A stretch of 64,000 bases of DNA from Paludibacteraceae bacterium (lineage in GTDB: Bacteria > Bacteroidota > Bacteroidia > Bacteroidales > Paludibacteraceae), in NCBI GenBank assembly GCA_024399495.1, contig JAKSNY010000003.1, positions 62,001 through 126,000 on the forward strand, written 5' to 3'. The notes under the pieces are model-generated. The model worked only from the letters and a program-made list of their open reading frames with translations, was not told the DNA's origin and searched no databases. A program made the position numbers and the translations under genes. The number at the start of each line of letters is the position of its first letter. Position 1 is the stretch's first letter. Below, piece by piece: positions 15,196 to 60,128 of the stretch.

Positions 15196-15329
15196 TAATA
15201 TGTATGCCCCCAGAGGACTCATACCTTCTGTGAAGGTATTCGGCCCTCCCGTACGGCTCTGTGAGCCTACGGGCCCCTCCCACTGTACGTCCGCGTGGGT
15301 GCGGACGCCTCTTTGGGGCACACATATTA
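15196..15329 (-). repeat. Structured intergenic element, copy 1
   Basis: Bounded by imperfect inverted arms (TAATATGTATGCCCC and its near complement). Read on the minus strand it has hairpin H1 (CGTCCGC/GCGGACG), a joint AGTGGGAGGGGCCC, hairpin H2 (GGCTC-ACA-GAGCC within CCCGTA/TACGGG), a joint GGGAGGGCC and hairpin H3 (ATACCTTC-ACA-GAAGGTAT). Confidence 0.85.
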
Positions 15330-15342
15330 CTTTCTGTAAATA

Positions 15343-15485
15343 GGTTTTATATATACACCCTAAGGAGGCGTTGTTACCCGTGACACGTGCACGGGAGGGA
15401 CCCATAGTGGTCACAGACCACGTATGGGAGGGACTCTGACCATCACAGATGGTCATGAGCCCTCCGAGGGTGTATATATAAAACC
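15343..15485 (+). repeat. Structured intergenic element, copy 2
   Basis: Outer arms GGTTTTATATATACACCCT and its exact complement form a perfect 19-bp inverted repeat (15343-15361 with 15467-15485). Inside, H2 is GTGGTC-ACA-GACCAC within CCCATA/TATGGG and H3 is TGACCATC-ACA-GATGGTCA. The first hairpin differs from that of the other copies (CCCGTG/CACGGG). Confidence 0.88.
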
Positions 15486-15516
15486 ATAACTTACCTCAAA
15501 ATGTTAATAAAAAAAC

Positions 15517-15547
15517 TTGCGTATGTGATTAAACATCAGTAAATTTG
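15517..15547 (+). promoter_or_regulatory. Promoter of wbpE
   Basis: TTG at 15517-15519 and TAAATTTG at 15540-15547 with a 20-base spacer fit the Bacteroidota consensus. Transcription would start near 15554, 33 bases before the wbpE ATG and downstream of the two structured elements. Confidence 0.6.
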
Positions 15548-15586
15548 CATCATTATTGTAATCAAACAAACAAATAACCAAACGTT

Positions 15587-16717
15587 ATGAAAAAAATTCA
15601 AATGGTTGACTTGAAAAGTCAATACGAGAAAATCAGAGAGCAAGTAAATTCCGGCATTCAGGAAGTAATTGACACCACATCATTTGTAAAAGGTGGTAAA
15701 GTAACAGAGTTCCAGGCAGAACTGGAGAAATACCTTGGCGTAAAGCATGTAATTCCTACAGGAAACGGCACAGACGCACTTCAAATTGCCCTTATGGGAC
15801 TCGGCTTAAAGCCTGGCGATGAGGTGATTACACCAACATTCACATTTATTGCAACAGCAGAGGTTGTTGCATTGCTTGGGCTTACCCCTGTAGTTGTAGA
15901 TGTTGATATGGACACATTCAACATGAGCATCGAGTCTGTAAAAAAAGCAATTACACCTAAAACCAAAGCAATAGTGCCTGTTCATCTATTTGGTCAAAAC
16001 GCCAATATGGAGGAACTTCTTAAAATTGCAAAAGAGCATAATTTATACATAGTAGAGGACGCTTGCCAGTCAATTGGTGCTGAATACACATTCTCTGACG
16101 GCAGAAAAGTTAAATCAGGCTGTATAGGAAACATCGGGTGTACATCATTCTTCCCATCTAAGAATCTGGGTTGCTACGGCGATGGCGGTGCCATTTTTAC
16201 CAACGATGATGACCTTGCCGCTAAAATGCGTGCCATTGCAAACCATGGTATGGTAGTCCGCTATCATCACGATTTGATAGGTGTAAACAGCCGTCTTGAC
16301 AGCATTCAGGCAGCAGTATTGCTTGCTAAGCTTCCACATCTTGATGAGTATATTGCCGCACGTCAGAAAGCCGCCGCTTATTATAATAAGGCATTTGCTT
16401 CATGCTCAAAAATTACAACGCCTGTTTGCAAGGACTTTACAACACACGTATTCCATCAATATACACTTAAACTTGACGCTTCTGTTGACAGAAATGCACT
16501 TCAGGCAGGACTTAAAGAGAAGGGCATACCTGCAATGATTTATTATCCTGTTCCATTGCACCTACAGAAAGCATATCAGGACCCACGCTATAAGAAAGGC
16601 GATTTCCCTGTAGCAGAGAAACTTATGGACTGCGTTCTCTCATTACCAATGCACACAGAGCTTGATGATGAGCAACTGAAATTCATTACAGATGCTGTTT
16701 TGGAACTTCTCAAATAA
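15587..16717 (+). CDS. wbpE: WbpE-like UDP-3-keto sugar aminotransferase
   Basis: A PLP-dependent DegT/DnrJ/EryC1 aminotransferase, most like WbpE/WlbC, which aminates C3 of the 3-keto derivative of UDP-GlcNAcA. The family motifs are PTGNGTDALQIAL, VEDACQSIGA and the PLP-lysine region TSFFPSKNLGCYGDGGA. Its neighbours encode the matching acetyltransferase (WbpD) and oxidoreductase (WbpB), giving the 3-oxidation, 3-amination, 3-N-acetylation route to UDP-GlcNAc(3NAc)A. WbpA and WbpI homologues are not in the window. Confidence 0.88.
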   Translation: MKKIQMVDLKSQYEKIREQVNSGIQEVIDTTSFVKGGKVTEFQAELEKYLGVKHVIPTGNGTDALQIALMGLGLKPGDEVITPTFTFIATAEVVALLGLTPVVVDVDMDTFNMSIESVKKAITPKTKAIVPVHLFGQNANMEELLKIAKEHNLYIVEDACQSIGAEYTFSDGRKVKSGCIGNIGCTSFFPSKNLGCYGDGGAIFTNDDDLAAKMRAIANHGMVVRYHHDLIGVNSRLDSIQAAVLLAKLPHLDEYIAARQKAAAYYNKAFASCSKITTPVCKDFTTHVFHQYTLKLDASVDRNALQAGLKEKGIPAMIYYPVPLHLQKAYQDPRYKKGDFPVAEKLMDCVLSLPMHTELDDEQLKFITDAVLELLK

Positions 16718-16722
16718 TGTTT

Positions 16723-16881
16723 TTAATTAAATTTGAAGTTCACATCAGTGCTCCCGCACAAAACGCTTCCACTTGGAGGAGCACAGCATTGTTTGAGCGA
16801 AGCGAGTTTGCGAGCACCGCAACAAGTTTGGCGTTTTGAAGGGAAATAAGCACGTTCTAGTGAACGAGAATTTAATTAAAA
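16723..16881. repeat. Second kind of palindrome-bounded intergenic element
   Basis: Between wbpE and wbpD. Outer arms TTAATTAAAT and ATTTAATTAA, then GTTCAC and GTGAAC, pair with each other. Inside, GTGCTCC pairs with GGAGCAC and ACAAAACGC is complementary to a later GCGTTTTG. It does not share the H1-H3 joints of the five-copy family but has the same nested design. Confidence 0.55.
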
Positions 16882-16900
16882 ATTAATATTATTATCAATT

Positions 16901-17473
16901 ATGAGTTACTTTAAGCACGAATCCTCCTACGTTGACGAGAATTGCGTCATCGGGGAAGGTACAAAGATATGGCACTTCAGCCACGTTATGAGTGGTTGTA
17001 AGATTGGTGAGAACTGCAATATAGGTCAGAATGTAGTTATAAGCCCCGATGTAGTTCTTGGTAATAACGTCAAGATTCAGAACAATGTATCTGTTTACAC
17101 AGGTGTTATTGCAGAAGATGACGTATTTATGGGTCCGTCTATGGTATTTACAAACGTGATTAACCCACGTAGCCATGTAAGCCGTAAAGATGAGTACAAG
17201 CAGACAATACTTAAAAAAGGTTGCTCTGTAGGTGCCAATGCCACTGTAGTGTGCGGACACACGATAGGAGAGTATGCTCTGATAGGTGCCGGCACTGTGG
17301 TTACAAAAGACGTTAAGCCGTTTGCCCTGATGGTAGGTAACCCTGCCCGCCAACTTGGTTGGGTTAGCGAGAACGGACAAAAACTCCATTTTGATGCTGA
17401 CGGCAATGCCACATGCCCAGCCACCGGACAAGAGTATAAACTTAAAGATGGTTTTGTTACAAGAATTAAATAA
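16901..17473 (+). CDS. wbpD: WbpD-like UDP-amino-uronate N-acetyltransferase
   Basis: A left-handed beta-helix acetyltransferase with hexapeptide repeats throughout (IGENCNIGQNVVIS, LGNNVKIQNNVSV, VGANATVVCGHTIG, IGAGTVVTKDV). The opening with CVIGEGTKIWHFSHV matches the WbpD/WlbB family, which uses acetyl-CoA to acetylate the 3-amino group made by WbpE. The gene is separated from both operon partners by hairpin-rich spacers. Confidence 0.88.
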   Translation: MSYFKHESSYVDENCVIGEGTKIWHFSHVMSGCKIGENCNIGQNVVISPDVVLGNNVKIQNNVSVYTGVIAEDDVFMGPSMVFTNVINPRSHVSRKDEYKQTILKKGCSVGANATVVCGHTIGEYALIGAGTVVTKDVKPFALMVGNPARQLGWVSENGQKLHFDADGNATCPATGQEYKLKDGFVTRIK

Positions 17474-17498
17474 TAATAGTAATGAATAAGAGTTTGGA

Positions 17499-17622
17499 TA
17501 TACCTATGACAGTGCGTCTGCACCCACGCAGTCGTATAGTGGGAGGGACCCGTAGGCTCACAGAGCCGTTACGGGAGGGCCGAATACCTTCACAGAAGGT
17601 ATGAGCCACTGGAATAGGTATA
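17499..17622 (+). repeat. Structured intergenic element, copy 3
   Basis: Outer arms TATACCTATGACAGTG and CACTGGAATAGGTATA pair except at two positions. Inside are a variant H1, H2 (GGCTC-ACA-GAGCC within CCCGTA/TACGGG) and H3 (ATACCTTC-ACA-GAAGGTAT), with joints GGGAGGGACCC and GGGAGGGCC. It ends 25 bases before the wbpB start and so lies inside the wbp operon. Confidence 0.87.
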
Positions 17623-17647
17623 GCTAAACTATTTAAAATTTAATAAT

Positions 17648-18661
17648 ATGATTAATTTTGCAGTAGTGGGCTTGGGGCATATAGGAAAGCGCCATGCCGA
17701 GATGATAAGACGTAATCCAAACGCACAGCTTGTTGCAGTTTGTGACGTACTTCCAAAAGAGAAGATAGACCCTGAAATTACAGAGGACTATTACAATGAC
17801 TATAATGAGCTACTCAAACGCTCTGATATAGACGTAGTTAATATCTGTAACCTGAATGGTTACCATGCAGAATATGCCATAAAGGCATTGGAGGCAAAAA
17901 AACATGTGGTACTTGAGAAACCTATAGCACTTACAAAATCAGATGCAGAGAAAATAGTTTTCAAGTCACTTGAGATGAGCCGCTCAGTATTCTGTGTTAT
18001 GCAGAACCGTTACTCTCCACCAATGGCTTGGCTAAAGAGCCTTGTTGATGAGAAAAAACTTGGTGAGATATACTTTGTTAAGGTTGATGCATTCTGGAAT
18101 CGTGACGGCAAATACTATCAAAAGGGTAGTTGGCATGGTACAAACGCCCTTGACGGTGGTACATTGTTTACACAGTTCAGCCACTATATAGATATGATTT
18201 ATTGGCTGTTTGGTGACATTACCAACATTCGAGGCAAGTTTGCAAACTGCTCACACGGTGATTTAATAGAGTTTGAAGATACCGGTTGTGTTGATTTTGA
18301 CTTTATAAATGGTGGTATCGGGTCATTAAATTATTCTACATCTGTATGGGATAAGAACCTTGAAAGTTCAGTTACAATTATTGGCTCAAAGGGTACAGTT
18401 AAGGTTGCCGGTCAGTATATGGACACCGTAGTTCACTGTCATATAGAGGATTACGAAATGCCAGAGCTTAAAGAACCTACACATGAGAATGATTTTGGTG
18501 CATACAAGGGTGCCGCTCAAAACCACGGATTTGTGATTCAAAACGTTATTGAGACTCTTAATTCAAAGGGTGCCATTGCCACAAACCTGCTTGAGGGCAT
18601 GAAGGTGGTTGATATAATTGAACGCATCTACCAAGAGCGTGATAGAAATTTTAGAAGGTAA
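17648..18661 (+). CDS. wbpB: WbpB-like UDP-GlcNAcA 3-dehydrogenase (Gfo/Idh/MocA)
   Basis: An NAD-dependent oxidoreductase with the Rossmann start FAVVGLGHIGKRHAE and the family motif EKPIALTKSDAE (about residues 94-105). WbpB oxidises C3 of UDP-2-acetamido-2-deoxyglucuronate to the 3-keto form used by WbpE. Length (337) and the region YYQKGSWHGTNALDGGTLF suit the WbpB/WlbA group. Copy 3 of the structured element lies immediately upstream and a strong terminator follows. Confidence 0.88.
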   Translation: MINFAVVGLGHIGKRHAEMIRRNPNAQLVAVCDVLPKEKIDPEITEDYYNDYNELLKRSDIDVVNICNLNGYHAEYAIKALEAKKHVVLEKPIALTKSDAEKIVFKSLEMSRSVFCVMQNRYSPPMAWLKSLVDEKKLGEIYFVKVDAFWNRDGKYYQKGSWHGTNALDGGTLFTQFSHYIDMIYWLFGDITNIRGKFANCSHGDLIEFEDTGCVDFDFINGGIGSLNYSTSVWDKNLESSVTIIGSKGTVKVAGQYMDTVVHCHIEDYEMPELKEPTHENDFGAYKGAAQNHGFVIQNVIETLNSKGAIATNLLEGMKVVDIIERIYQERDRNFRR

Positions 18662-18682
18662 TTTCTTCGTTAGGCTTGTTTT

Positions 18683-18718
18683 CATCGGGGTAGAAAAAAT
18701 CTGCCCCGATTTTTTTAC
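18683..18718 (+). terminator. Rho-independent terminator after wbpB
   Basis: ATCGGGGTAGA and TCTGCCCCGAT pair over 11 positions (one G-T wobble) around five As, followed by seven or more Ts. The stem contains the overrepresented CATCGGGG motif on one side and its complement on the other. Confidence 0.85.
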
Positions 18719-18811
18719 CATAAAATTTTAATATTTTTTACAAAAAAAAATACTTTATTATTCAAGTTTTTGTTGTATATTTGTAGTGTAATAATTTAAA
18801 TATAAAGTTTT

Positions 18812-19129
18812 ATGTATGAGAATTTGTATTTTATGACTGATAAAGCCATTGTTCAAAGAATGGGGAAAAAGATTCAGGAAGTTAGATTGAGACAGAATAT
18901 TACACAGCAGAAACTTGCCACAGATGCAGGCACGTCACTATCTACAGTTCAGAAGATTGAGCGTGGCGAGATAGGCTCAATTATGTCTTATATCCAAGTT
19001 ATTAGAGTATTACGTATGCTTGATTCATTATATTTATTAGTAGAGGAGGAGAAACTTTCACCCAGTCAGATATTAGAGGCACAGGAGAAGGCGGCAAAGT
19101 ATAAACGCAAGCACGCATCAAATAAATAA
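18812..19129 (+). CDS. hipB: HipB-like XRE antitoxin
   Basis: 105 residues with an XRE helix-turn-helix (about residues 18-70): RLRQNITQQKLATDAGTSL and VQKIERGEIG. It would repress its promoter (a TATATTTG lies at 18776-18783) and neutralise the HipA kinase encoded 8 bases downstream. The C-terminal Lys-rich tail may be disordered. Confidence 0.83.
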   Translation: MYENLYFMTDKAIVQRMGKKIQEVRLRQNITQQKLATDAGTSLSTVQKIERGEIGSIMSYIQVIRVLRMLDSLYLLVEEEKLSPSQILEAQEKAAKYKRKHASNK

Positions 19130-19137
19130 TTAAGGAT

Positions 19138-20409
19138 ATGATAACCGCAATTAAAGTAATGCTGTATGGCAGACAGATTGCCACAGCAGCGTATGAGAGA
19201 AACAGTCCTATTGTATCATTAGAATACACTAATGACATAATTGAAAGTGGAGTGGAGCCGTCGCCACTACTGATGCCTGTAAAAAAAGGTGTTTCATATT
19301 CATTTGCCAACATCGGGGAAGAAACATTCAAAGGTCTTCCAGGATTGCTAGCCGATTCACTGCCAGACACATACGGTAGAAAATTATTTGAACAATGGTT
19401 AAGAATTACAGGTCGCACATCAGGCAATACATTGGAGAGCCTCTGTTTTATGGGGAAAAGATGTATGGGTGCACTTGAATTTGAACCTGCCGCTGACTAT
19501 GCTGTAAACAAAGACCAACTGTTTGAAATGGAGAGTCTTATAGATGTTGCAGACAAGGCTTTGAACAATAAGATGGAGTTCTCATCCAATATGAAAAATG
19601 ACTCTGCAATAGCAGATATTATTCAATTAGGTACATCTGCAGGAGGGCAGAGAGCGAAGGCTGTAATAGCATACAACAGTAAGACAGGAGAGATAAGAAG
19701 CGGTCAGACAGATGCCCCAGATGGCTTTGAACACTATTTGATTAAACTTGATGGCGTTAATGGTACAACAGGGTTAAGGGAGACAAATAATTACGGCAGG
19801 GTGGAATACTCTTTCTATAAATTGGCTAAAGCGTGCGGAATTGATATATCTGATTGCAGTTTGCTTGAGGAGAACGGACGTGCACACTTTATGACAAAGC
19901 GTTTTGACAGAATGAATGGTAAAAAAATTCACATGCAAACGCTTTGCGGAATAGCCCATTATGACTACAGAAGTAGCGGCACATATAGTTATGAACAGGC
20001 ATTCCAGATAATGAGAGGCTTACATTTGACATATTCAGAGATGAGTGAGATGTTCAAACGTCTTGTACTGAATATTGTTATTAGAAACCAAGATGACCAC
20101 ACTAAAAACATATCATTTCTAATGAATGAAAAAGGTGAATGGAGACTATCTCCAGCATACGATGTTGGTTTTGCATACAATCCCCACGGACTATGGACAA
20201 ACCAGCACCAAATGTCTGTGAACAATAAATTCTCAAATATAACAAGAAAAGATTTACTTAAACTTGCCTCAGATATAAATATAAATGGTGCGTCAGAAAT
20301 AATTGATTACATTTGCCGTGTAGCAAAACAATGGCCGGACATTGCCAATCTATGTGGTGTTCCGGCCGATAAAAGTGACGCTATTTATAACTATTTTGAA
20401 TGGCTGTAA
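19138..20409 (+). CDS. hipA: HipA-family serine/threonine kinase toxin
   Basis: A full-length HipA-like kinase (423 residues) that would phosphorylate a translation factor or tRNA ligase to induce dormancy. Visible are the glycine-rich loop LGTSAGGQRAKA, the catalytic segment NQDDHTKN and the metal-binding SPAYDVGF, plus the N-terminal HipS-like subdomain (SFANIGEETFKGLPG, LPDTYGRKL). It follows the HTH antitoxin gene and forms a classical hipBA pair, unlike the split hipBST system at 50.8-52.3 kb. Confidence 0.88.
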   Translation: MITAIKVMLYGRQIATAAYERNSPIVSLEYTNDIIESGVEPSPLLMPVKKGVSYSFANIGEETFKGLPGLLADSLPDTYGRKLFEQWLRITGRTSGNTLESLCFMGKRCMGALEFEPAADYAVNKDQLFEMESLIDVADKALNNKMEFSSNMKNDSAIADIIQLGTSAGGQRAKAVIAYNSKTGEIRSGQTDAPDGFEHYLIKLDGVNGTTGLRETNNYGRVEYSFYKLAKACGIDISDCSLLEENGRAHFMTKRFDRMNGKKIHMQTLCGIAHYDYRSSGTYSYEQAFQIMRGLHLTYSEMSEMFKRLVLNIVIRNQDDHTKNISFLMNEKGEWRLSPAYDVGFAYNPHGLWTNQHQMSVNNKFSNITRKDLLKLASDININGASEIIDYICRVAKQWPDIANLCGVPADKSDAIYNYFEWL

Positions 20410-20425
20410 ATAGAGCCTGTCTTAA

Positions 20426-21646
20426 TTATGGCTTAGGTTTAAGCGTTAGCTTGTATGGGGTGTAGATTTGCTTCTTTGTAAGCGGAGACACCCCGATTTT
20501 TACATCATTGACCTTGATAGAGCCTGTCTGCTTAAAGTTTATATGGTTGCCTTTACGCTCCTGAATGTGGATATTTGTAAGCACATTCTTCTCCTGAACC
20601 ACCATTCGGTTATTGTTCTCAGTGTATAGAATGTTCCTCTTAATATCTATATGAGCCTTTTTTACCCGATATTTTTTAAGAGCGTCACTGCCTATAAGCA
20701 GAGTGTTAAGCATTGAAAGTTGCTCCTTGGTAAGCTTGTAACCGAATGGAATATCCAAATCCACAACAAGAGACTGCGATAATTTATAGACCCTGTAAGA
20801 GTAGGGGTTAAGTATGTAGTTAAGCACCAACTCACCTTTAGCGATACCTAATATATTATGGCTCTCTGTGTATGTCAGCACCAAAACAGAATCAACCTCT
20901 TGCGTATCCCATCTGCCTGGAGTGTCAGACATTCTGTTAAACAAGTACTTAACGCCACTTCCCCATAAGAATTTATGCACCCAACGGCTTGAGTCTGCAT
21001 AGTGAATAAGTTTGGCATTTTGCTTTTTCTTAAGAGTGGAGTCCAACTTCTCATAATTAGACTGAATATGGTCATCGCGGTATCGGTTAATCCAATTTAG
21101 TCTTAACTGAACCAAATCCTTGCCTTTATCACCAGCACCCGGAATCTCAACAATATCGGCTCCAACATCTTCTACAGCCATAGCGGCACCCTCATTATAT
21201 ACGCCGTAGTCTGACACCACATTATACATAATGTTATCATCGGGGAAATCCTTGTCCATCTGAGCCTTAACATCTTTTAATATAGCCTTCATCTGCTTAC
21301 GGTGGCTCATTTTCTTATTTTTGGCATTGACAGAGGTCTCTGCAAGCAGAATAGGCTGCTCCACAAGCGTTATATTTATGGTATCCTTGGGCTGCTTCTT
21401 AAATTTTAGTTCCATAGTCCTGTACCCGATAAAGGAGACAACGATACTTTGCCCCTCATTAAAATCGGGGATGTCAAAGACACCATTGAAATCAGAGATT
21501 GTTCCGTTTTGCGGATTCTCCTTTACATAAATACTTGTATATGGAACCGGATTAGTCCCATCAGACACCTTACCTGTCAGCGTGAATGCTGACGCCATTT
21601 GGATTTGTGATAATAAAATCACAATCGGGAATAATAGCTTTTTCAT
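20426..21646 (-). CDS. Secreted carboxypeptidase-regulatory-like domain protein
   Basis: 406 residues with a signal peptide ending SQIQMASA and a CarboxypepD_reg-like beta-sandwich (about residues 22-105: LTGKVSDGTNPVPYTSIYVK, IVVSFIGYRTMEL). The remaining 300 residues are of an unnamed Bacteroidota type, reminiscent of DUF5686-like proteins without the TonB-type barrel. It probably works in the periplasm or at the outer membrane. It is transcribed alone, divergently from clpB, with structured element copy 4 between them. Confidence 0.72.
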   Translation of the reverse strand: MKKLLFPIVILLSQIQMASAFTLTGKVSDGTNPVPYTSIYVKENPQNGTISDFNGVFDIPDFNEGQSIVVSFIGYRTMELKFKKQPKDTINITLVEQPILLAETSVNAKNKKMSHRKQMKAILKDVKAQMDKDFPDDNIMYNVVSDYGVYNEGAAMAVEDVGADIVEIPGAGDKGKDLVQLRLNWINRYRDDHIQSNYEKLDSTLKKKQNAKLIHYADSSRWVHKFLWGSGVKYLFNRMSDTPGRWDTQEVDSVLVLTYTESHNILGIAKGELVLNYILNPYSYRVYKLSQSLVVDLDIPFGYKLTKEQLSMLNTLLIGSDALKKYRVKKAHIDIKRNILYTENNNRMVVQEKNVLTNIHIQERKGNHINFKQTGSIKVNDVKIGVSPLTKKQIYTPYKLTLKPKP

Positions 21647-22044
21647 ATTCTCTTAAGGCACCATTTGAGCTGCCTTCATATTCATTAGAGCAATAATTAT
21701 GCCAAAAAAAATTGTGGTATGCCATTTTGTCAGTCTGGGATTTGGAATAGTTTTTGTAGATATAAAAATGAGGTTCTTTTAGATTTTGGATTGTGTAACT
21801 GTCCGCTTGTGTAAGAATTTACTCTATTACCCTTGGCGGTCCTCAAGAATCTTTTAATTTTTTTTAAATAAAAGTTTTTATGGTATGTAAATTGAGGCGT
21901 CCGCACCCCCGCGGACGTACAGGGGGAGGGACCCATTGGGGTTACAAACCCTAATGGGAGGGGCTGAAACCCTTTACAAAAGGGTTGAAGTCCGAAAGTA
22001 CATACCATAAAAACTTTAAAAATAAACTAAAATAATATAAAATT
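21647..22044. other. Divergent intergenic region with a structured element
   Basis: 398 bases between the secreted-protein gene and clpB. The distal part holds structured element copy 4; the rest has no credible gene. It does not encode the missing N-terminal domain of ClpB in any frame I can see. Confidence 0.65.
21871..22017 (+). repeat. Structured intergenic element, copy 4
   Basis: Perfect 19-bp outer inverted repeat (AAAGTTTTTATGGTATGTA, 21871-21889 with 21999-22017). H1 is CGTCCGC-ACCCC-GCGGACG (21898-21917); H2 is GGGTT-ACA-AACCC within CCCATT/AATGGG; H3 is an AACCCTT/AAGGGTT hairpin. The joints GGGAGGGACCC and GGGAGGGGC match the other copies. It ends 27 bases before the clpB ATG, a position suited to a 5' UTR structure. 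Confidence 0.9.
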
Positions 22045-24183
22045 ATGGAAGCAAAGAATTATGAAGCATTGAGCAAGTACGCCATAAATTTGAATGAGCG
22101 TGCAAAGAGCGGGAAACTTGACCCTGTAATAGGGCGTGACGAGGAAATAAGGCGTGTGCTGCAAATCCTTAGCCGTAGAACAAAAAACAACCCAATATTA
22201 ATAGGTGAACCAGGTGTAGGAAAAACCGCTATAGCAGAAGGTTTGGCACACCGTATTATAAGAGGTGATGTGCCTGAGAACCTAAAGGATAAAGTACTAT
22301 TCTCACTTGATATGGGAGCACTTATCGCAGGAGCAAAATATCAGGGAGAGTTTGAGGAGAGATTGAAAGCCGTTATAAATGAGGTGATTAAATCTAATGG
22401 AGAGATTATACTGTTTATAGATGAAATTCATACATTGGTAGGTGCAGGAGGCAACGGTGGTGGAGCGATGGATGCCGCCAATATACTTAAGCCAGCCCTT
22501 GCAAGAGGAGAACTGCGAGCCATCGGGGCTACAACCCTTAATGAGTATCAAAAGTATTTTGAGAAAGATAAGGCATTGGAGCGTAGGTTCCAGATAGTTA
22601 TGGTTAATGAACCCGATGAGGCGGCAACTATCTCTATATTAAGAGGTTTGAAAGAGCGTTATGAGAACCATCACAAGGTGCGTATCAAGGACGATGCCAT
22701 TATTGCCGCAGTAGAACTGAGTAACCGATACATATCAGACCGTTTCTTACCCGATAAGGCAATAGACCTTATTGATGAGGCGGCAGCACGTCTAAGGCTT
22801 GAAATGGACTCTGTACCAGAGGAATTGGATACAATAGAACGTAACATTAAGCAACTTGAGATTGAGCGTGAAGCCATCAAGCGTGAGAATAATGAGAGCA
22901 AACTGAAACAACTCAATGAAGAAATAGATGCCCTCAAGAAACGTGATGCCGAAGGCAAGACCAAATGGCAGACCGAAAAGCATTATATAGATGGTATTCA
23001 GCAAGATAAGATTGATATAGAGAACCTTAAATTTGAGGCTGAAAGGGCAGAGCGTAATGGCGATTACGGTAAGGTGGCAGAAATACGTTATGGCAAAATC
23101 CAGCAAAAGGAGAAGGATATTGCAGACCTGCAAAAGAAGTTGCAAGACCTTGACGGAGAGCCATTTATACGTGAAGAGGTTAGCGATGAGGACATTGCGG
23201 AGATAGTCAGCAAATGGACTGGCATACCTGTAAGCAAAATGAATCAGAGTGAGCAGGATAAACTGTTGCACCTTGAAGAAGAGTTGCATAAAAGGGTAGT
23301 GGGACAGGAGGAAGCAATCAAAAGCGTATCTGATGCCATAAGACGTAGCCGAGCCGGATTAAACGACCCTAAGAGACCTATCGGGTCATTTATATTCTTG
23401 GGAACAACAGGTGTAGGAAAAACCGAGCTTGCAAAGGCATTGGCTGAGTTCCTGTTTGATGATGAAAATATGATTACCCGTATTGATATGAGTGAGTATC
23501 AAGAGAAATTCTCCGCCACAAGGCTTATAGGAGCGCCTCCGGGATATGTAGGTTACGATGAGGGAGGTCAACTGACAGAGGCAATACGCCGCAAGCCTTA
23601 TTCAGTGGTGCTTTTTGATGAGATTGAAAAGGCTCACCCCGATGTGTTCAACATTCTGTTACAGGTGCTTGACGATGGTCGTCTGACAGATAACAAGGGT
23701 AGAACCGTCAACTTTAAGAACACCATTATAATAATGACATCTAATCTGGGTTCTCAACTTATTAGAGAGAATATGGAGAAGATGAACGGCGATAATAGGG
23801 CAGAAGTGCTTGAAAACACAAGAAATCAGGTATTTGGGCTGCTTAAACAGACTATAAAGCCTGAGTTCCTGAACCGTATAGATGACCTTATAATGTTTAC
23901 GCCGCTTGGTCAGGAAGAGATTACAAAGATAGTGAATCTGCAAATCAACGCTGTAGCCCGTATGCTTATGGCAAATGGCATTGAGCTTAGAGTTACAGAT
24001 GCCGCCACAGATTACATTGCGTCAGTAGGTTATGACCCACAATTTGGTGCAAGACCTGTCAAGCGAGCCTTGCAGAACCTTGTTCTCAATGAACTCTCAG
24101 AGCAAATCATTGCCGGCAAAGTTGACCGCACCAAACCTGTAATGGTTGACTACAAAAACGGCGAGATGGTGTTTGGGAACTAA
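22045..24183 (+). CDS. clpB: ClpB disaggregase lacking the N-terminal domain
   Basis: AAA+ disaggregase that works with DnaK/DnaJ/GrpE. NBD1 starts at once (Walker A GEPGVGKT near residue 58, Walker [10 protein letters not shown]), followed by the coiled-coil middle domain (about 250-375, [19 protein letters not shown] onward) that marks ClpB rather than ClpA/C, then NBD2 ([25 protein letters not shown]). At 712 residues it lacks the usual Clp_N domain of about 150 residues, beginning at the linker equivalent to [20 protein letters not shown]. It ends 3 bases from the convergent WYL gene. Confidence 0.93.
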
Positions 24184-52277: not shown

Positions 52278-52278
52278 T

Positions 52279-52355: not shown

Positions 52356-52368
52356 TTTTTGGTATAAA

Positions 52369-52713: not shown

Positions 52714-52720
52714 AATGGTA

Positions 52721-53206: not shown

Positions 53207-53296
53207 ATTTTATCTAAATTTTATGCAAAAATAAACATATAAGTTGATTTTTGCAAATATTTTTTATATTATTTCTAAAAATTTCTGTAATTCAGA

Positions 53297-53327
53297 TTTT
53301 GCATAAAAGAAAAATTCTTTAACTTTG
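53297..53327 (+). promoter_or_regulatory. Promoter of the 53.4-kb RNA candidate
   Basis: TTTTG at 53297-53301 and TAACTTTG at 53320-53327, 18 bases apart, fit the -33/-7 consensus. Transcription would start near 53333. Confidence 0.6.
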
Positions 53328-53332
53328 TACCC

Positions 53333-53628
53333 GATGTCCACGCTGTGGCTCTGAAAAGAGATATTATGGGTGGGCAACGATGGGAGAAATCCCGATGACA
53401 TAAATTAGCGTTTATTGACGCTTTGTTTTGACGTTACAGAACTTCGCAAATTCTTTTTCATTGTCAAAAACATAGCAGCAGTAGATGTCCTGTGGGTGTG
53501 TAATAGATATTGCAATTGCAGTATTTTACATACAGCGTGGACTTCTGTGTTGCTCGTTCTGACAATGAGGGCAATGCGAAGGCCTTGTAACGTGGAACAG
53601 CAACAAAGTTGGTCCACGTTTTTTTATG
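53333..53628 (+). ncRNA. Candidate rod-shaped structured RNA (6S-like), copy B
   Basis: Promoter and terminator bracket a transcript of about 290 bases. The main rod pairs ACGTTACA (53431) with TGTAACGT (53586), CTTCGCA (53442) with TGCGAAG (53575) and CATTGTCA (53459) with TGACAATG (53560). GCGTGGACT (53535-53543) lies in the central part, as in copy A. The 5' segment adds GGGA-GAAA-TCCC and GCGTTTATTGACGC hairpins, and GTCCACGCTG (53336-53345) is fully complementary to CAGCGTGGAC (53533-53542). A 6S-type regulator of RNA polymerase is one possibility; the family is unconfirmed. Confidence 0.55.
53591..53625 (+). terminator. Rho-independent terminator of the 53.4-kb RNA
   Basis: CGTGGA pairs with TCCACG around a 16-base loop, followed by seven Ts. 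It ends about 30 bases before the aminotransferase start, so that gene needs its own transcript start or read-through. Confidence 0.7.
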
Positions 53629-53655
53629 TCATATCATATTCAACCAAGAACTGAT

Positions 53656-54789
53656 ATGAAAGAAAAAACACCTACAATTACCGTTACATCCCCTTTATTG
53701 CCACCAATAGAGGAATTTGTTCCGTATTTAAAGGAAATATGGAATAATAAATGGATAACAAACAATGGACAGTTCCACCAAAAACTAGAACAAGAATTAG
53801 CCAAATATTTAGGAGTGGAATACATCTCAGTATTTACCAACGGAACGCTTCCACTTATAACCGCATTACAAGCTCTTAATATCACTGGAGAGGTAATAAC
53901 AACTCCCTACTCTTTTGTTGCTACTACACATGCTATTTGGTGGAATGGATTAAAGCCAGTATTTGTTGACATCGACCCAATTACTGGTAACATAGATCCC
54001 ACAAAAATTGAAGCCGCCATAACCTCTAAAACATCGGCAATAATGCCTGTTCATGTTTATGGGTGTCCGTGTGATACAAATGCCATTCAAAAAATCGCTG
54101 AAAAGCACAAATTAAAAGTAATATATGATGCAGCACACGCCTTTGGCGTAAAAGTTAATGGACAAAGTATTTTAAATGCCGGCAATATTTCTACTCTATC
54201 GTTCCATGCTACAAAAACATACAACACAATAGAAGGAGGTGCATTAGTATGTCACTCTGCTGAAATGAAACAAAAAATAGATTACCTTAAAAACTTTGGT
54301 TTTGAAGATGAAATAACTATTGTTGCTCCTGGTATCAACAGTAAAATGGATGAAGTAAGAGCCGCATACGGATTATTAAATTTAAAATATGTTGATGAAG
54401 CCATTGCTAATAGGAAACATGTCGCCGAACAATATGTTAATGCACTATCAAACACAAAAGGTGTAAAATTATATCAACCTATTGTTGAATCTTTAAAAAA
54501 TGATTCAATAAAAATGAACTATTCTTATTTTCCAATTTTTATCGATGCTGAAAAGTTTGGAATAACTAGAGATGAACTATACTATAAGATGAAAGAACAA
54601 GGCATACTCGGTCGCAGATATTTTTATCCGTTAATCAGTTCTTTAAATCAATACAATACATACGAATCTTCTTCTATTGGAAATCTACCCATAGCAAATA
54701 ATTTTGCAAATTCAGTTATTTGTTTGCCAATGCATCAAAACCTAACAGATAATGATATTAATATGGTCCTTAAAAGTATAAAACTATGA
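53656..54789 (+). CDS. DegT/DnrJ/EryC1-type sugar aminotransferase
   Basis: A PLP-dependent nucleotide-sugar aminotransferase, 377 residues from the ATG at 53656. Motifs are NGTLPLITALQAL, IYDAAHAFGV and HATKTYNTIEGGA with the PLP lysine. The ATKTYNTIEGGA form resembles the VioA group (dTDP-4-amino-4,6-dideoxyglucose synthesis), but specificity is uncertain. It overlaps the ATP-grasp gene by 4 bases. High A/T content and absence of CATCGGG suggest a transferred cassette. Confidence 0.85.
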   Translation: MKEKTPTITVTSPLLPPIEEFVPYLKEIWNNKWITNNGQFHQKLEQELAKYLGVEYISVFTNGTLPLITALQALNITGEVITTPYSFVATTHAIWWNGLKPVFVDIDPITGNIDPTKIEAAITSKTSAIMPVHVYGCPCDTNAIQKIAEKHKLKVIYDAAHAFGVKVNGQSILNAGNISTLSFHATKTYNTIEGGALVCHSAEMKQKIDYLKNFGFEDEITIVAPGINSKMDEVRAAYGLLNLKYVDEAIANRKHVAEQYVNALSNTKGVKLYQPIVESLKNDSIKMNYSYFPIFIDAEKFGITRDELYYKMKEQGILGRRYFYPLISSLNQYNTYESSSIGNLPIANNFANSVICLPMHQNLTDNDINMVLKSIKL

Positions 54790-55736
54790 GAATTTTAGTT
54801 ACAGCCATCGGTTCTATGTCTGCCCCATACGTAATAAAATCATTACGCTCTTATGGTCATTTTGTTTTAGGAACAGATATATATCCAGGAAAATGGCACT
54901 TTGAAACAAGATTATGTGACGCTTTCAGGCAAGCACCGTTAGCAACCCAACAAGATGAATACATAAAATTTTTAACACAATGTTGTGATGATTATAATTT
55001 AGACACGATACTTCCTCTCACAGATTTAGAGATAGATATTATCAACACACATCGTGAGGCTTTTAAAAATAACATATTATTAGCGATGCCTGATGCTAAT
55101 GTACTTAACATCGCCAGAGACAAATATAAATTATATGAGCAATTTAAAAACGATGATTCAGTGCCCTCTATCAAAACCATTAGACTTATTGATTTTTTGA
55201 ACGATTCAACATTATTCACAACTTTCCCATGTGTTGCAAAAACATACAATGGTAGGAGTAGTGAAGGTTTAATCAAGAATGCTTTTTTTAAAGATATCAA
55301 AGCAGTAGAAAATCCAAATTCATACATTATACAGGAACAAATAGAAGGTTCTATAGTTACTGTGGATTATGTGCGTTCCAGTAAATATAATATCGATGTG
55401 TCAATAGCTAGAGAAGAATTACTGCGTACAAAAAATGGTGCAGGTATGACTGTTCGTGTTTTTAAAGATGACAAACTAGTTCAATTATCATCTCACATTG
55501 GTAATGTTCTAAACATTAATAGTGCTATTAATATGGAATTTATCAGTGCAAGTAATGGAAATTATTATCTTATTGATGTTAATCCTAGATTTTCTGCAGG
55601 AATAGCATATAGTAAAATTGCTGGCTATGATATGGTACGCAATCATTTCAATGCACTTTCCGGTCAGATTATTGAACCGCAAATACATATTAACGAACTA
55701 TATATAACAAAACATTGGGAAGAATCGATTTTATAA
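54786..55736 (+). CDS. ATP-grasp protein
   Basis: 316 residues. A preATP-grasp Rossmann start (RILVTAIGSMSAPYVIKSL), TILPLTDLEID, and an ATP-grasp domain with CVAKTYNGRSSEGL, IIQEQIEGSIVTVDY and the metal-binding YLIDVNPRFSAGI. Such proteins ligate an amino acid or other carboxylate. Between a sugar aminotransferase and a glycosyltransferase, it may attach an acyl or amino-acid group to the amino sugar; this is inference. Confidence 0.8.
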   Translation: MRILVTAIGSMSAPYVIKSLRSYGHFVLGTDIYPGKWHFETRLCDAFRQAPLATQQDEYIKFLTQCCDDYNLDTILPLTDLEIDIINTHREAFKNNILLAMPDANVLNIARDKYKLYEQFKNDDSVPSIKTIRLIDFLNDSTLFTTFPCVAKTYNGRSSEGLIKNAFFKDIKAVENPNSYIIQEQIEGSIVTVDYVRSSKYNIDVSIAREELLRTKNGAGMTVRVFKDDKLVQLSSHIGNVLNINSAINMEFISASNGNYYLIDVNPRFSAGIAYSKIAGYDMVRNHFNALSGQIIEPQIHINELYITKHWEESIL

Positions 55737-55749
55737 AAAACACAAAATT

Positions 55750-56691
55750 ATGACTACAAAAGATATTAAAGTTAGCATCGTTTGTGATGTATATAATCAC
55801 GAACCTTATTTACGAGATTGTTTTGAAGGATTTGTTAACCAAAAAGTGAATTTCAAATATGAAATTTTAGTGAATGATGATGCGTCTACTGATAATTCTG
55901 CAAAAATAATCAAGGAATACGAAGAGAAGTATCCAGAGTTATTTAAAGTAATTTATCAAAAAGAAAACCAATATTCTCAAGGTATAAAAATATGGGGTGA
56001 CATTCAATTTCCAAGAACAAATGGACAATATGTTGCAGTATGTGAAGGCGATGATTATTGGACAGATATGAGTAAACTACAAAAACAAGTTGACATCTTG
56101 GATTGTGATAATTCACTGATGGGTGTAGTTACCAATTCTTCTGTTGTCAGTTTTAATGGGGATCTCATAAAATCTATGCAAGAAAATGTTGTGCAAAACA
56201 ATGTTGAAGGAAAATATGATTTGAGAGATTTTTTAACGCCACCACAACATTCTTATCCAACAGCAACTGTGATGTTTAGAAATAATCCTAAAAATGAGAT
56301 TCTGCAAAAATTAAGTCATACAAGAAATAAATATTTGTCAGACTGGACATTATGGATTATTCTACTTTCTTATGGAAATTTTTATTATTTAGATGAAGTT
56401 ACTGCCGCATATAGAATAAATCCAACCTCTGTTACACACACATGTGATAGAGTTGGCAGAGCCAAAGCAAGCAGACAGATTTGTAATGCTGTTGCAGATA
56501 TTTTACCTGCAGAATACTCGGATATAGCAAAAGAATTTAGAGATACACGATGGATATGGATTTCTTTGTTCTTTGCATACAGACACGAAAAGAAATACAT
56601 AAAAATGTTTGGTAGTCTGTTTATGGCACTAATTTTGTGTCCTAGTGCAATGAAAACACACATTTCAAACTATTTGCACAAAACTAAATAA
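55750..56691 (+). CDS. Family 2 glycosyltransferase
   Basis: 313 residues with the GT-A start VSIVCDVYNHEPYLRDCFEG, EILVNDDASTDNS and the metal-binding CEGDDYW (ED/DxD-type). Helical C-terminus, no clear transmembrane segment. It ends the three-gene sugar cassette and would add the modified sugar to a surface glycan. Confidence 0.87.
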   Translation: MTTKDIKVSIVCDVYNHEPYLRDCFEGFVNQKVNFKYEILVNDDASTDNSAKIIKEYEEKYPELFKVIYQKENQYSQGIKIWGDIQFPRTNGQYVAVCEGDDYWTDMSKLQKQVDILDCDNSLMGVVTNSSVVSFNGDLIKSMQENVVQNNVEGKYDLRDFLTPPQHSYPTATVMFRNNPKNEILQKLSHTRNKYLSDWTLWIILLSYGNFYYLDEVTAAYRINPTSVTHTCDRVGRAKASRQICNAVADILPAEYSDIAKEFRDTRWIWISLFFAYRHEKKYIKMFGSLFMALILCPSAMKTHISNYLHKTK

Positions 56692-56699
56692 AAAAATAG

Positions 56700-56932
56700 G
56701 TATACTACTCACACCTTGCGGTGTTCGTGAAGATTGAGCTACGCTCGGCATAATCATTACTCGTACCTGACGGTACTCGTGATGATTGAGCTACGCTCGG
56801 CATAAGCCGTAGGCTAAGCCTACTTTAATCCCATCCTTTTCGCATAAAGCAAACGTAAGTAGACTTTCGTTTGCTTTACGCTTAAAGTATGTGCTTATGC
56901 CTCGCTTGTGACTTCTGCTCTCGCTTGCACAA
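56700..56932. repeat. Array of hairpins with two tandem units
   Basis: Two units share the tail TCGTGA(A/T)GATTGAGCTACG followed by CTCGGCATAA (ending 56753 and 56805). In front of each tail is a different hairpin: ACACC-TTGC-GGTGT and GTACC-TGAC-GGTAC. GTAGGC-TAA-GCCTAC and AAAGCAAACG...CGTTTGCTTT follow. It lies between two convergent genes and may also terminate both. Confidence 0.7.
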
Positions 56933-57634
56933 TCATTCAAAGTTAAATGTAATTGACAGCATGCGGGCGGTGAGGCGTTTGACGGATTGGGTGCAGATGA
57001 AGTCTGCGGTACCCTCCATCTCCGGGTGGTTGCGGTTAAGTTCATCAAGAAGCCCAAAGCCGAACTTGATTTCAGGGCATAGTTTGAAGTATTGCAGGTA
57101 TATGTCAAAGCCTATACCAAATGCTATCTGGACATCAAATGATTTTAGCAGAATGGGTACATCGGGGTCCAGATTCATATTAAACATAGGTCCACCACCT
57201 GCTATAAGGTACGGACGGAAATTACCGTAACGCTTGGCACTGAATTTAAGATAGAACGGAATATCCATTGTAACACCGTTTACAGAGGTGTTTTTTCTAT
57301 CAACAACCTCACCAGCTGAGTTAAAGGCAGAGTATTGGAAAGAGCGTTTACCTAACCCAAGATATGGAGTAAACCTGAGATTCAGATGGTTACACAATCT
57401 TAAATCTACTATCATACCAACCAAAAACGCTGGCTGAAGCCCACCCGATGCGGCATACCAAGTGTTTTCGTTCTCATCTACATAGCCATTTGGCTCCACA
57501 CGAAAATCGTTGAATCCCAGACCCAATATAAAGCCAAAATGCCAACGGTTATAATCCACCTTGGTAAGACGCTGAACTATATTACGGTCATACTGAGCAG
57601 ATGCAACAGATGCAAATGCACAAGTTAAAAGCAA
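56933..57634 (-). CDS. PorT-like outer-membrane beta-barrel protein
   Basis: About 233 residues resembling PorT-family barrels of Bacteroidota, linked to the type IX secretion pathway in Porphyromonas. A signal peptide (LLLTCAFASVASAQ) is followed by alternating strands and a terminal SITFNFE. The reading given starts at a TTG at 57634. The natural-looking start, seven codons upstream (57655-57653), reads ATC rather than ATG, at the edge of a repeat; the leader would then be (I)KRLLFILLLTCAFASVASAQ. Confidence 0.8.
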   Translation of the reverse strand: MLLTCAFASVASAQYDRNIVQRLTKVDYNRWHFGFILGLGFNDFRVEPNGYVDENENTWYAASGGLQPAFLVGMIVDLRLCNHLNLRFTPYLGLGKRSFQYSAFNSAGEVVDRKNTSVNGVTMDIPFYLKFSAKRYGNFRPYLIAGGGPMFNMNLDPDVPILLKSFDVQIAFGIGFDIYLQYFKLCPEIKFGFGLLDELNRNHPEMEGTADFICTQSVKRLTARMLSITFNFE

Positions 57635-57654
57635 TATGAATAATAGTCGTTTGA

Positions 57655-57713
57655 TGGTGATTCGGTGATTTGGTGATGCGGTGATGCGACATCATACATC
57701 ATACATCATACAT
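57655..57713. repeat. Composite micro-repeat GGTGATTNGGTGAT / CATACATCATACAT
   Basis: Four GGTGATN-type units followed by four ACATCAT units, the same two-part composite as at 48460-48512. It abuts the 5' end of the PorT-like gene and may have altered its start codon. Confidence 0.75.
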
Positions 57714-57730
57714 AAAAAACTCCTAAACTT

Positions 57731-59098
57731 TTATTTTATTGTGAACTTCTCTATAAGTTCTTCCGGAGTAAGGTTGGTTTGTGTGCCTGTAGTCATATCT
57801 TTTAGGGCTATTACACCATTTTGCAGTTCGCTCTCCCCTACAATGGCTACAAACGGTATCTGACGGTCACCGGCATAACCTATCTGTTTCTTGAATTTTG
57901 CCGCATCGGCGTACAACTCTGTGGCTACACCTGCCTGACGTAGGCGTTTTACTATAGGTAAAACAAACTCCACCTCTTTTTCTCCCAAATTAAGGAATAT
58001 AACCTTGGTCTGGCATGCAAGGGATTCCGGATAAAGATTAAGCCCGTTAAGAACATCGTAGATTCTGTCTGCTCCAAATGATATGCCCACGCCTGACAGC
58101 CCATCTACACCAAACACACCTGTAAGGTTATCGTATCTACCGCCACCTGTAATGCTGCCTATCTCAAAATCAAGGGCTTTGACCTCTATTATAGTGCCTG
58201 TATAGTAGTTCAGTCCACGTGCAAGTGTAAGGTCTGCATCCACTGTGCAACGGATACCTGCCTTATCTATCATAGAGAACAGTGTCTGCATCTCAGATAC
58301 ACCTTTCATTCCTATTTCTGAGCCTTTTAGTATATTAGACAACTCATTGATTTTATCAGTATTAGAACCTTGCATTAAAAGTATAGGTTGAAGTTTGGCT
58401 ACAGCATCGGGGCTTAAACCTTTTTCAAGTAATTCAGCATTCACGTTATCAATACCTATCTTGTCAAGTTTATCTATGGCAACGGTAATATCCACTATCT
58501 TATCCTCTGCACCCACCGTTTCTGCTATACCTGCAAGGATTTTACGGTTGTTCAGCTTTATTGCCACACGCATACCGAATCTTGCAAACACCTCATCTAT
58601 AATCTGCACTAATTCAAGCTCGTTAAGGAGTGAATCTGAGCCTACGATGTCGGCATCGCACTGGTAAAATTCACGATATCTACCCTTCTGTGGACGGTCT
58701 GCACGCCATACAGGCTGGATTTGAAATCTGCGGAAAGGGAATTTTATCTGGTCTCTGTATTGCACCACAAAACGGGCAAAAGGAACTGTAAGGTCATAGC
58801 GTAATCCCTTTTCTGATAGCTTAGATGTTAGTTTTACACTGTTTTTAGAAAGCAACTCCTCATCGGTGAGAGAGCCTAAGTAATCTCCTGAATTAAGTAT
58901 TTTAAATAAGAGTTTATCTCCCTCTTCTCCATATTTTCCCATAAGGGTTGAGAGGTTTTCCATTGCAGGAGTCTCTATCTGCTGGAATCCGTATAGTGAA
59001 TACACACTCTTTATTGTATCAAAGATGTAGTTTCTGCGTGCCATCTCGCTTGGCAGAAAATCACGAGTACCTTTTGGAATTGACGGTTTTGTAGCCAT
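57731..59098 (-). CDS. hisS: Histidyl-tRNA synthetase
   Basis: Class II synthetase, 455 residues. [12 protein letters not shown] opens the protein; [19 protein letters not shown] (motif 2), [14 protein letters not shown] and GGGRYDNL are diagnostic. The C-terminal anticodon-binding domain ends [16 protein letters not shown]. It is 78 bases from the PorT-like gene. Confidence 0.95.
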
Positions 59099-59141
59099 AA
59101 CGTTATTTGAAAATTAAAGTGCAAAGTTACAATTTATTTTA

Positions 59142-59939
59142 TTACCAACAAAGTACGTACAGGTCTCCTCTTGGGTTGATGCACATTACAGGAGTTGTAG
59201 CGGCACGCAGTACGTGTAACTCCTTGGGACCAAAGAATATATCGTCAAGTCCGTAGTCTCTTGACGTGGAAATAACAACCATACCGGCACCTATCTCTGA
59301 TGCCTTGTAGGCTGCCTCTTTCTCCACCTTGAAGCTATCTTTCTTGCCTTTCTCCACCTTATATTTAAGGTTGAACTTATCATATAGAGTCTTTATTGCC
59401 TCCACATTCTTAGGGGTCTTACTTCCGTAGTCATTTGCCTCAAGTATCAGCAATTCAGAGCCTAAGAATCTGCCCATATTTGATGTGTATGGGGCTTTCT
59501 CCTTCTCTTCCACAAGATAGCACACAGGAACTATCACTTTAGAGAAATCGGTTACGTCTGCGTCCATCTTAACTATCACAAACGGTATTCTAAGGTCTCT
59601 AAGCCCTTTAAACACTGTCATCGGGTCTGAAAACTTATCCCGATGTCCTGTTTCAAAAAACATTATAGGGGTTTCTGTACGCTCACTCATAAGGCATACC
59701 TCTTCAAGTGTGCCGTCTGAAATATAGTATTGGAACTGCACATCGGCGTTAGCCTGCTCCCAATCGCTCTCTTTTGCGGCAAAGGTGTCAGAGACTTTGT
59801 CGGTAAGTGCAAGCAGACACAACCCCTTCTGAAAGCCTCGTGCAAACTGCACTGCCGCTTTCATTGCCTTGGCTGGGAAGTAAATGCCATCTGTGACCAC
59901 CAAGAAATACCTTGAATATTTTATTTCTTCCAATAACAC
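59142..59939 (-). CDS. UspA-like universal stress protein
   Basis: 265 residues from a GTG at 59939, with a two-domain Usp-like pattern: RYFLVVTDGIYFPAKAMKAA at the N-terminus and HVLRAATTPVMCINPRGDLY at the C-terminus. A minus-strand TACCTTTG lies at the complement of 59943-59950, so the transcript would be nearly leaderless. The frame stays open to 60047, but that part reads through a structured element and is not credible. Confidence 0.72.
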   Translation of the reverse strand: MLLEEIKYSRYFLVVTDGIYFPAKAMKAAVQFARGFQKGLCLLALTDKVSDTFAAKESDWEQANADVQFQYYISDGTLEEVCLMSERTETPIMFFETGHRDKFSDPMTVFKGLRDLRIPFVIVKMDADVTDFSKVIVPVCYLVEEKEKAPYTSNMGRFLGSELLILEANDYGSKTPKNVEAIKTLYDKFNLKYKVEKGKKDSFKVEKEAAYKASEIGAGMVVISTSRDYGLDDIFFGPKELHVLRAATTPVMCINPRGDLYVLCW

Positions 59940-59985
59940 ATTGCAAAGGTAATAAATTTTTGTTTTACTATTAACTACATTAAAC

Positions 59986-60128
59986 AATTTTATATTAACC
60001 CAATTTAGGACTTCAACCCTTTTGTAAAGGGTTTCAGCCCCTCCCATATAGGTCTGTGACCAATATGGGTCCCTCCCCCTGTACGTCCGCGGGGGTGCGG
60101 ACGCCTAAATTTGGGTTAATATAAAATT
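59986..60128 (-). repeat. Structured intergenic element, copy 5
   Basis: Outer arms AATTTTATATTAACCC...TTTAGG and their complement pair along about 24 bases with one single-base indel. Read on the minus strand it has H1 CGTCCGC-ACCCC-GCGGACG, H2 GGTC-ACA-GACC within CCCATAT/ATATGGG and the same H3 as copy 4. It lies between the divergent usp and ftsK promoters. Confidence 0.9.

Follow-up and report, generated by a model that had tools for sequence, protein, structure and literature searches.

We analysed a 64,000-nucleotide stretch of the Paludibacteraceae bacterium assembly GCA_024399495.1 (contig JAKSNY010000003.1, positions 62,001 to 126,000; hereafter, the window), which carries five copies of an intergenic element of about 125–150 bp. 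According to our analysis, the element is probably a small, apparently non-autonomous mobile element, whose plus strand would fold into a pseudoknot, two hairpins, and a long outer stem. The reading that we favour, at about even odds, is that the fold is selected in a plus-strand form arising during the life cycle of the element itself, and that template switching works on the arms. An earlier note on this DNA had recognized the five copies, and all of them were confirmed at their places. As explanations it had proposed selection on a structure, be it a folded RNA or a DNA cruciform, or else repair by template switching; the pseudoknot, the covariation, and the wobble pairs of the arms support a folded single strand but not template switching alone.

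On the element strand, the parts follow in the order outer stem P0, short stem P1, hairpin H1, joint GGGAGGG, hairpin H2 with an ACA loop, a second GGGAGGG, hairpin H3 with an ACA loop, and the closing strands P1' and P0'. The CCCN of the H1 loop pairs with NGGG of the joint, forming an H-type pseudoknot. H2 and H3 had been described before, whereas H1 and the pseudoknot had been missed. The ends given earlier for copies 2, 4, and 5 stand, but the arms of copy 1 reach 15192-15333 and those of copy 3 reach 17491-17630. The shared joints also hold, with the correction that the joint of copy 1 is GGGAGGGGCCC. Copies 1 and 5 lie on the minus strand and copies 2, 3, and 4 on the plus strand, with the following parts:

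15192..15333, minus strand: copy 1, whole element with outer arms (covariance-model match L023:1501-1642, 141 bits)
15315..15333, minus strand: copy 1, 5' arm of outer stem P0 (partner 15192-15210, one G.U)
15192..15210, minus strand: copy 1, 3' arm of outer stem P0
15288..15308, minus strand: copy 1, H1 hairpin (pseudoknot of loop CCCAC, 15295-15299, with GTGGG, 15279-15283)
15248..15273, minus strand: copy 1, H2 hairpin with ACA loop
15221..15239, minus strand: copy 1, H3 hairpin with ACA loop and tandem GA/GA at its base
15343..15485, plus strand: copy 2, whole element (arms 15343-15361 and 15467-15485, 19 bp, perfect)
15369..15395, plus strand: copy 2, H1 (15369-15387) and pseudoknot (CCCGTG, 15377-15382, with CACGGG, 15390-15395)
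15401..15428, plus strand: copy 2, H2 hairpin
15437..15455, plus strand: copy 2, H3 hairpin
17491..17630, plus strand: copy 3, whole element (arms 17491-17507 and 17614-17630; 17 nt before the ATG at 17648)
17514..17543, plus strand: copy 3, H1 (17514-17534) and pseudoknot (CCCAC, 17523-17527, with GTGGG, 17539-17543)
17549..17575, plus strand: copy 3, H2 hairpin
17584..17602, plus strand: copy 3, H3 hairpin
21871..22017, plus strand: copy 4, whole element (arms 21871-21889 and 21999-22017, 19 bp, perfect)
21898..21926, plus strand: copy 4, H1 (21898-21917) and pseudoknot (CCCCC, 21906-21910, with GGGGG, 21922-21926)
21932..21958, plus strand: copy 4, H2 hairpin
21968..21986, plus strand: copy 4, H3 hairpin
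59986..60128, minus strand: copy 5, whole element (arms 60111-60128 and 59986-60003, 18 bp, perfect)
60075..60103, minus strand: copy 5, H1 (60084-60103) and pseudoknot (CCCCC, 60091-60095, with GGGGG, 60075-60079)
60043..60069, minus strand: copy 5, H2 hairpin
60015..60033, minus strand: copy 5, H3 hairpin

All five copies fold better than 200 of 200 dinucleotide shuffles, both on the element strand (z from -5.4 to -10.1) and on the opposite strand (z from -4.5 to -8.9). The predicted geometry (about 7 bp in stem 1, a single base in the loop, 5–6 bp in stem 2, and about 4 bases in the linker) fits an H-type pseudoknot. In most copies GA stands opposite GA at the base of H3. A G-quadruplex built from four GGG runs was considered and is not required, several copies having GGGAAGG or GGGTAGT instead. 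No Rfam family matched the window at gathering score, and no match overlapped an element at E values up to 5 in the 10 loci searched.

The covariation of the stems, which the earlier note had read from five copies, was confirmed on 66 distinct core copies with 37 proposed pairs, aligned with MAFFT (structure was not used in fitting) and compared with 500 shuffles and with partners slid by 1–3 columns. Paired cells amounted to 92.4%, against 77.1% in shuffles, and changes on both sides occurred in 30 of the 37 pairs; neither value was reached in any of the 500 shuffles, nor was the covariation score (0.418 versus 0.149). The number of further pair types was matched by three shuffles of the 500, and sliding the partners left at most 49.7% of cells paired. 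Within the pseudoknot helix 99.4% of cells are paired. Its variable pair is GC in 28 copies, AU in 22, CG in 15, and UA in one, is broken in none of the 66, and requires at least nine changes on a tree built without its two columns. Recurrent changes are also needed elsewhere (12 for the H3 pair 83-100, 6 for pair 54-62, and 8 for pair 15-24), these counts being rough, as a tree from 109 columns and 66 rows is poorly resolved. The pseudoknot was present in 67 of 67 copies that could be parsed, out of 84, with CCC and GGG forming part of the parsing pattern. At one orthologous site, shared by genomes G000, G003, and G002, where the element lies antisense to its neighbours, an H3 pair has changed from G-C to A-U, and H2 has one G.U and a further G-C to A-U change. 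Judging from these sequences, compensation seems to happen in place, in an antisense copy, though the changes may also be gene conversion from an unsampled copy.

The wobble pairs indicate which strand of the element matters. A palindrome kept only as DNA should decay equally to G.T and A.C, whereas on the plus strand of the element the arms show 41 G.U against 12 A.C in distinct contexts. The same count gives 9 against 0 in H2, 1 against 0 in H3, and 15 against 6 in H1, and the raw arm count, flanks included, is 87 against 36. When each arm group and position is counted once, with progressively looser grouping, the arm bias becomes 30 versus 6, 17 versus 6, and 15 versus 6 (p = 3e-5, 0.02, and 0.04). 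Across these counts, G.U exceeds A.C in the arms by roughly 2.5–5 to 1. By orientation in the host, the arms have 20 G.U against 5 A.C in sense copies, 20 against 3 in antisense copies, and 7 against 3 in the others. Selection on host mRNA would predict the opposite bias in antisense copies. The similar bias in both orientations therefore points to selection on the element's own folded strand, as RNA or single-stranded DNA, and not on host mRNA.

That the element inserts is seen at one site that is clean at base level, among the empty sites in relatives which the earlier note had advised looking for. Copy L037 of genome G000 (C12:42654) reads AAGCGAATAATATA[element]GTAATAATAAAGCATGAG, while the corresponding spacer of G010 (L179) reads AAGCGAATAATATAGCATGAG. 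The arms thus came with the element, and the empty site is no palindrome. The flanks of L037 hold an imperfect 9-bp direct repeat, AATAATATA/AATAATAAA, and this is the only site showing one. Inverted arms score in 77 of the 84 copies, and arms are shared within subfamilies, with no arm sequence common to the whole family. The earlier statement that the arms of different copies are unrelated is thus partly correct: TATATACCC or something close to it recurs at the inner end in many copies, and others have nothing obvious in common. The pattern that would make the element a simple miniature inverted-repeat transposable element (MITE), conserved terminal repeats together with target duplications, is not general here. 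All the same, the contrast with MITEs had been drawn too sharply, as the elements are inserted, dispersed, and bounded by arms, and live like MITEs; it holds in that no terminal sequence is common to all copies.

Cores and arms appear to be partly uncoupled. Among 96 pairs of copies whose cores have an identity of 0.94 or more, the arms reach an identity of no more than 0.6 in 9, between 0.6 and 0.8 in 43, and above 0.8 in 44, where random arms have a mean identity of 0.55 and a 95th percentile of 0.70. Sequence is also exchanged between copies, since L030 and L106 have a common site and common arms with different H1 and H2. Sister copies stand inverted at two orthologous spacers, L021 (G000) and L061 (G010), with flanks 95 and 93% identical and support of 95/79, and L106 (G010) and L063 (G002), with flanks 87 and 89% identical and support of 99/89; this is what template switching between the arms predicts. 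Other opposite-orientation pairs at one spacer (L117/L120 and L119/L107) differ in their cores and are more plausibly explained by independent insertions. By eye, the pair of copies 1 and 2 (window 15130-15640) appears as an inverted block in G010:C122:5560-6090 (L164), where a further copy is joined to a remnant of copy 1. Outer inverted repeats running on into the flanks had prompted the idea of insertion into the loop of an existing host hairpin. This was rejected: the clean empty site is not palindromic, and element-free sites, inspected by eye, are without the arms of their filled counterparts. The element-free site L189 holds a different hairpin, and host-hairpin insertion may still account for some copies.

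The family is dispersed in its own genome and among close relatives. The sequence GGGAGGGACCC occurs 17 times in the 2.08-Mb genome, every time inside an element copy, and its reversed control not at all. A covariance model, a check that the earlier note had proposed, was built from 15 copies and recovered a dispersed family when run on relatives. It found 23 copies in the own genome, which rise to 25 with L002, a copy with two nested inserts, and with a truncated copy at a contig end. Across the 61 relatives scanned there were 81 copies, all in seven of the 16 genomes of the genus (23, 18, 5, 10, 2, 11, and 12), and none in the 45 others. Under stricter filters, none was found in 342 genomes of other genera of the family (at most eight candidates scored per genome among the matches listed). 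A model of the core only, run with strict filters on 393 genomes of the order, gave three copies in one genome and one in another, both of other families. Divergent relatives were noted in other Bacteroidales (L208, L211, and L213 in G563, L209 in G385, L070, and L073). By eye, the layout of distant relatives is the same and their sequence and arms are different, and the three copies of G563 have nearly identical cores with unlike arms. The complement of the pseudoknot, again by eye, is kept in the distant carriers G563, G385, and RGIG3749, and not clearly in RGIG7207. A pattern scan placed carriers among horse-faeces Paludibacteraceae metagenome-assembled genomes (MAGs), the rumen Bacteroidales RUG163 and RUG243, a goat-rumen MAG, and a water-buffalo MAG. 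Three short-pattern hits in actinobacteria and an archaeon, among the matches listed, are without the second joint and look like chance. Phages and plasmids gave no match to the one copy used as a query, nor viral contigs to the one pattern scanned. No description of this family was found in the open-licence literature among the matches listed.

Within the window, copies 1 and 2 separate a Wzi-like gene from a DegT aminotransferase gene, and copy 3 lies between a hexapeptide transferase gene and a Gfo/Idh/MocA gene, copy 4 before a ClpA/B-type gene, and copy 5 before ftsK. Copy 4 ends 27 bases before a start codon, as had been noted, and copy 3 ends 17 bases before one, not 25. From simple open reading frame calls, which left 7 of the 84 copies without a called neighbour, 77 copies had a called gene on either side. 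Both of these genes are on the element strand for 37 copies, 24 copies are antisense to them, 10 lie between divergent genes, and 6 between convergent ones. The excess of sense over antisense has p = 0.12, and 44 of 56 gene pairs in the window background are tandem. A preference for operon interiors was rejected, as the tandem share equals that background. A role tied to neighbouring genes is not supported, because the orientation bias has this p value and the types of gene pair match the window background.

The family is of the MITE/ERIC/REP-like kind. In passages of PMC2229807 and PMC10969869, bacterial MITEs and the ERIC, NEMIS, and RUP repeats appear as dispersed, intergenic, arm-bounded sequences of 100–200 bp whose transcripts would form long stems, much as here. 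The present element differs from what these passages describe by having no universal terminal sequence, by its covarying internal helices, its pseudoknot, and its strand-asymmetric wobble, and in that no parent insertion sequence was seen for it (own genome, one arm pattern). Mobility is indicated by the one clean filled and empty site; terminal inverted repeats conserved across the whole family were not found. Repetitive extragenic palindromic (REP) sequences of the GTAG and CGTC families, with their REP-associated tyrosine transposases (RAYTs) of the Y1 type, are likewise intergenic palindromes, often in inverted pairs as copies 1 and 2 are (parts of PMC3733652 and PMC8266576), but REPs measure 20–40 bp, against about 140 nt with three hairpins for the element. 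CGTC does start H1 in many copies, but it is base-paired there, and no tagged unit of 20–40 bp was found. The integron attC sites, as portrayed in sections of PMC2727003 and PMC6393395, share with the element that structure is kept over sequence and that the fold of one strand matters. Template-switch hairpins share near-perfect arms, inversion of the spacer, and multibase compensatory change (portions of PMC8794818 and PMC8604942). Bacteroidales RNAs of Rfam such as Bacteroidales-1 are also covarying intergenic structures (part of PMC2864571), but they differ in that no Rfam family matches the element in the searches given above. Unlike what a retroelement similar to short interspersed nuclear elements (SINEs) would show, reverse transcriptase does not track the element. 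A pseudoknot of this kind is not known from attC sites.

We propose that the folded plus strand, as RNA or single-stranded DNA, would be recognized by an enzyme when the element is copied or moved, and that the fold would be selected through this life cycle and not through the regulation of host genes. After insertion, polymerase template switching between the arms may invert the core and keep the arms near-perfect. A fuller version, which we regard as rather unlikely, would be a selfish element moving as a folded single strand, with the pseudoknot and hairpins as its ticket for copying and with arms re-made or perfected from local sequence; it would be SINE-like or rolling-hairpin-like, without a Y1 transposase or a dedicated reverse transcriptase, and would occur in no fewer than three of the order's family codes (f1, f29, and f108).

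An alternative to this proposal is a cis-acting intercistronic RNA of the ERIC/REP kind, whose fold in the transcript would alter the stability or translation of the neighbours' mRNA and be kept by host selection. The strong folds relative to shuffles agree with it, as does the placing of 61 of the 77 copies, which are flanked by co-directional genes and often sit some 50 nt or less from a stop or start, but the tandem share is that of the window background, the 37 sense and 24 antisense copies show no significant bias, and the antisense copies keep the arm wobble bias on the strand that the operon does not transcribe; we consider this explanation unlikely. Another possibility is a DNA palindrome that stays complementary only through template switching and gene conversion, without any folded strand being selected. 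Parts of PMC8604942 describe how template switching homogenizes the arms of inverted repeats and inverts spacers, and parts of PMC8794818 how it creates and maintains RNA stems. The inverted sisters at orthologous sites, the near-perfect arms that sometimes run into the flanks, and the two-element block that looks inverted are all in its favour. What speaks against it is that it predicts equal G.U and A.C, contrary to the arm counts, and that this mechanism by itself gives neither strand-asymmetric wobble nor a loop-joint pseudoknot, here of 5–6 bp and passing through all four pair types, nor does it predict the conserved ACA loops and GA/GA, so that it seems to us quite improbable as the whole explanation. 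We are equally doubtful of an ordinary MITE moved by a DDE transposase, with a fold incidental to long terminal inverted repeats. Insertion with full arms and an imperfect 9-bp direct repeat at the L037 site, and arms common within subfamilies, are what such a MITE would give. Yet no insertion sequence with these ends was found in the own genome (one arm pattern, one 82.5%-complete MAG), and the nine pairs with close cores and arm identity no higher than 0.6, near the random mean, also speak against it. From general knowledge, a DDE enzyme has no need of an internal pseudoknot.

Several observations weigh against the proposal that a folded plus strand is selected during the life cycle of the element. 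The model used to find the copies contains the arms and the pseudoknot pair, and broken copies are consequently under-counted. For the core taken as a whole, the wobble bias is weak (39 versus 26 distinct contexts, p = 0.07); by part, it is 15 versus 16 in P1, where the columns are poorly aligned and noisy, 9 versus 5 in H1, and 15 versus 5 in the pseudoknot, H2, and H3 together. An exposed plus strand could also acquire G.U through strand-biased deamination, and the wobbles of antisense copies may have been inherited from sense ancestors. Antisense copies also score slightly lower (median of 129.8 versus 134.8 bits, n = 20 versus 33, p = 0.09, the lowest-scoring copies being left out). Clean empty sites were only 1 of 15 comparisons in the first set, the remaining ones being rearranged and element-free, save one filled; there were none in five further fetched stretches and none in 11 comparisons of G001 with G012, two of which hold apparent remnants of an element end, and additional element-free sites seen in other comparisons were also not clean. 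The inverted pairs were seen in MAG assemblies and differ in their arms, and they may be separate insertions or assembly errors. Furthermore, no mobilizing enzyme was found in searches for Y1, reverse transcriptase, and one arm pattern, in which DDE transposases were not screened. The carriers are MAGs, 78–96% complete, and with this incompleteness a Y1 transposase was not found in six of the seven element-bearing genomes of the genus (G000-G003, G010, and G012), nor in two distant carriers; it is present in the carrier G009 and in the element-free G005. Mobilization of the REP/RAYT kind was rejected on the Y1 result in the genus. Reverse transcriptase (RVT_1) was found in three of seven carriers and two of nine non-carriers of the genus and in neither of the two distant carriers, and as its presence is uncorrelated with the element, a reverse-transcriptase partner was rejected too. 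The arm pattern TTTATATATACC occurs at 11 places in the own genome, eight of which are arms of known copies by coordinates; of the three others, one is a truncated copy and two lie in apparent coding sequence.

Other repeats lie beside or inside some copies. Window positions 16718-16885 hold a second dispersed repeat, hairpin-rich and with AT-rich inverted arms, of which six further copies were read in G000 and G010; the arms of the window copy are unlike those of four others, and the repeat is missing from the orthologous G010 spacer. Directly 3' of five element copies (L025, L033, L050, L066, and L030:905-1046) stand about 30 nt of GCCCGTTCTAGGTGTGACA..GTATAAATC or variants. This piece is the second repeat's 3' end, which looks as though part of one repeat had been replaced by the other and the composite had then spread. 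Nested hairpins of about 60–75 nt, of the AGCGAGAGCAGAA..TGCCGAGCG type, were seen in the joint, H2, or H3 of L002, L036, L039, L128, L130, L131, and L190, and in L042 by length only; look-alikes also stand alone nearby, with stems that vary and stay complementary. Short tandem runs, e.g., GTTGAAAGTTGAAAG or GATGTATGATGTATG, lie beside many copies (such as L025, L033, L053, and L059), and runs of this kind also take up some of the orthologous spacers that have no element.

Small palindromic repeats are usually viewed as DNA debris whose transcripts happen to fold. Here, an internal fold that includes a pseudoknot survives many compensatory changes, and the wobble bias falls on one strand regardless of which strand the host transcribes. 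The element thus offers a clean case in which to ask whether repeats of this sort travel as folded RNA or as single-stranded DNA. Its orthologous, inverted, and empty copies also allow a test, in bacteria, of how far template switching helps to keep RNA-like stems.

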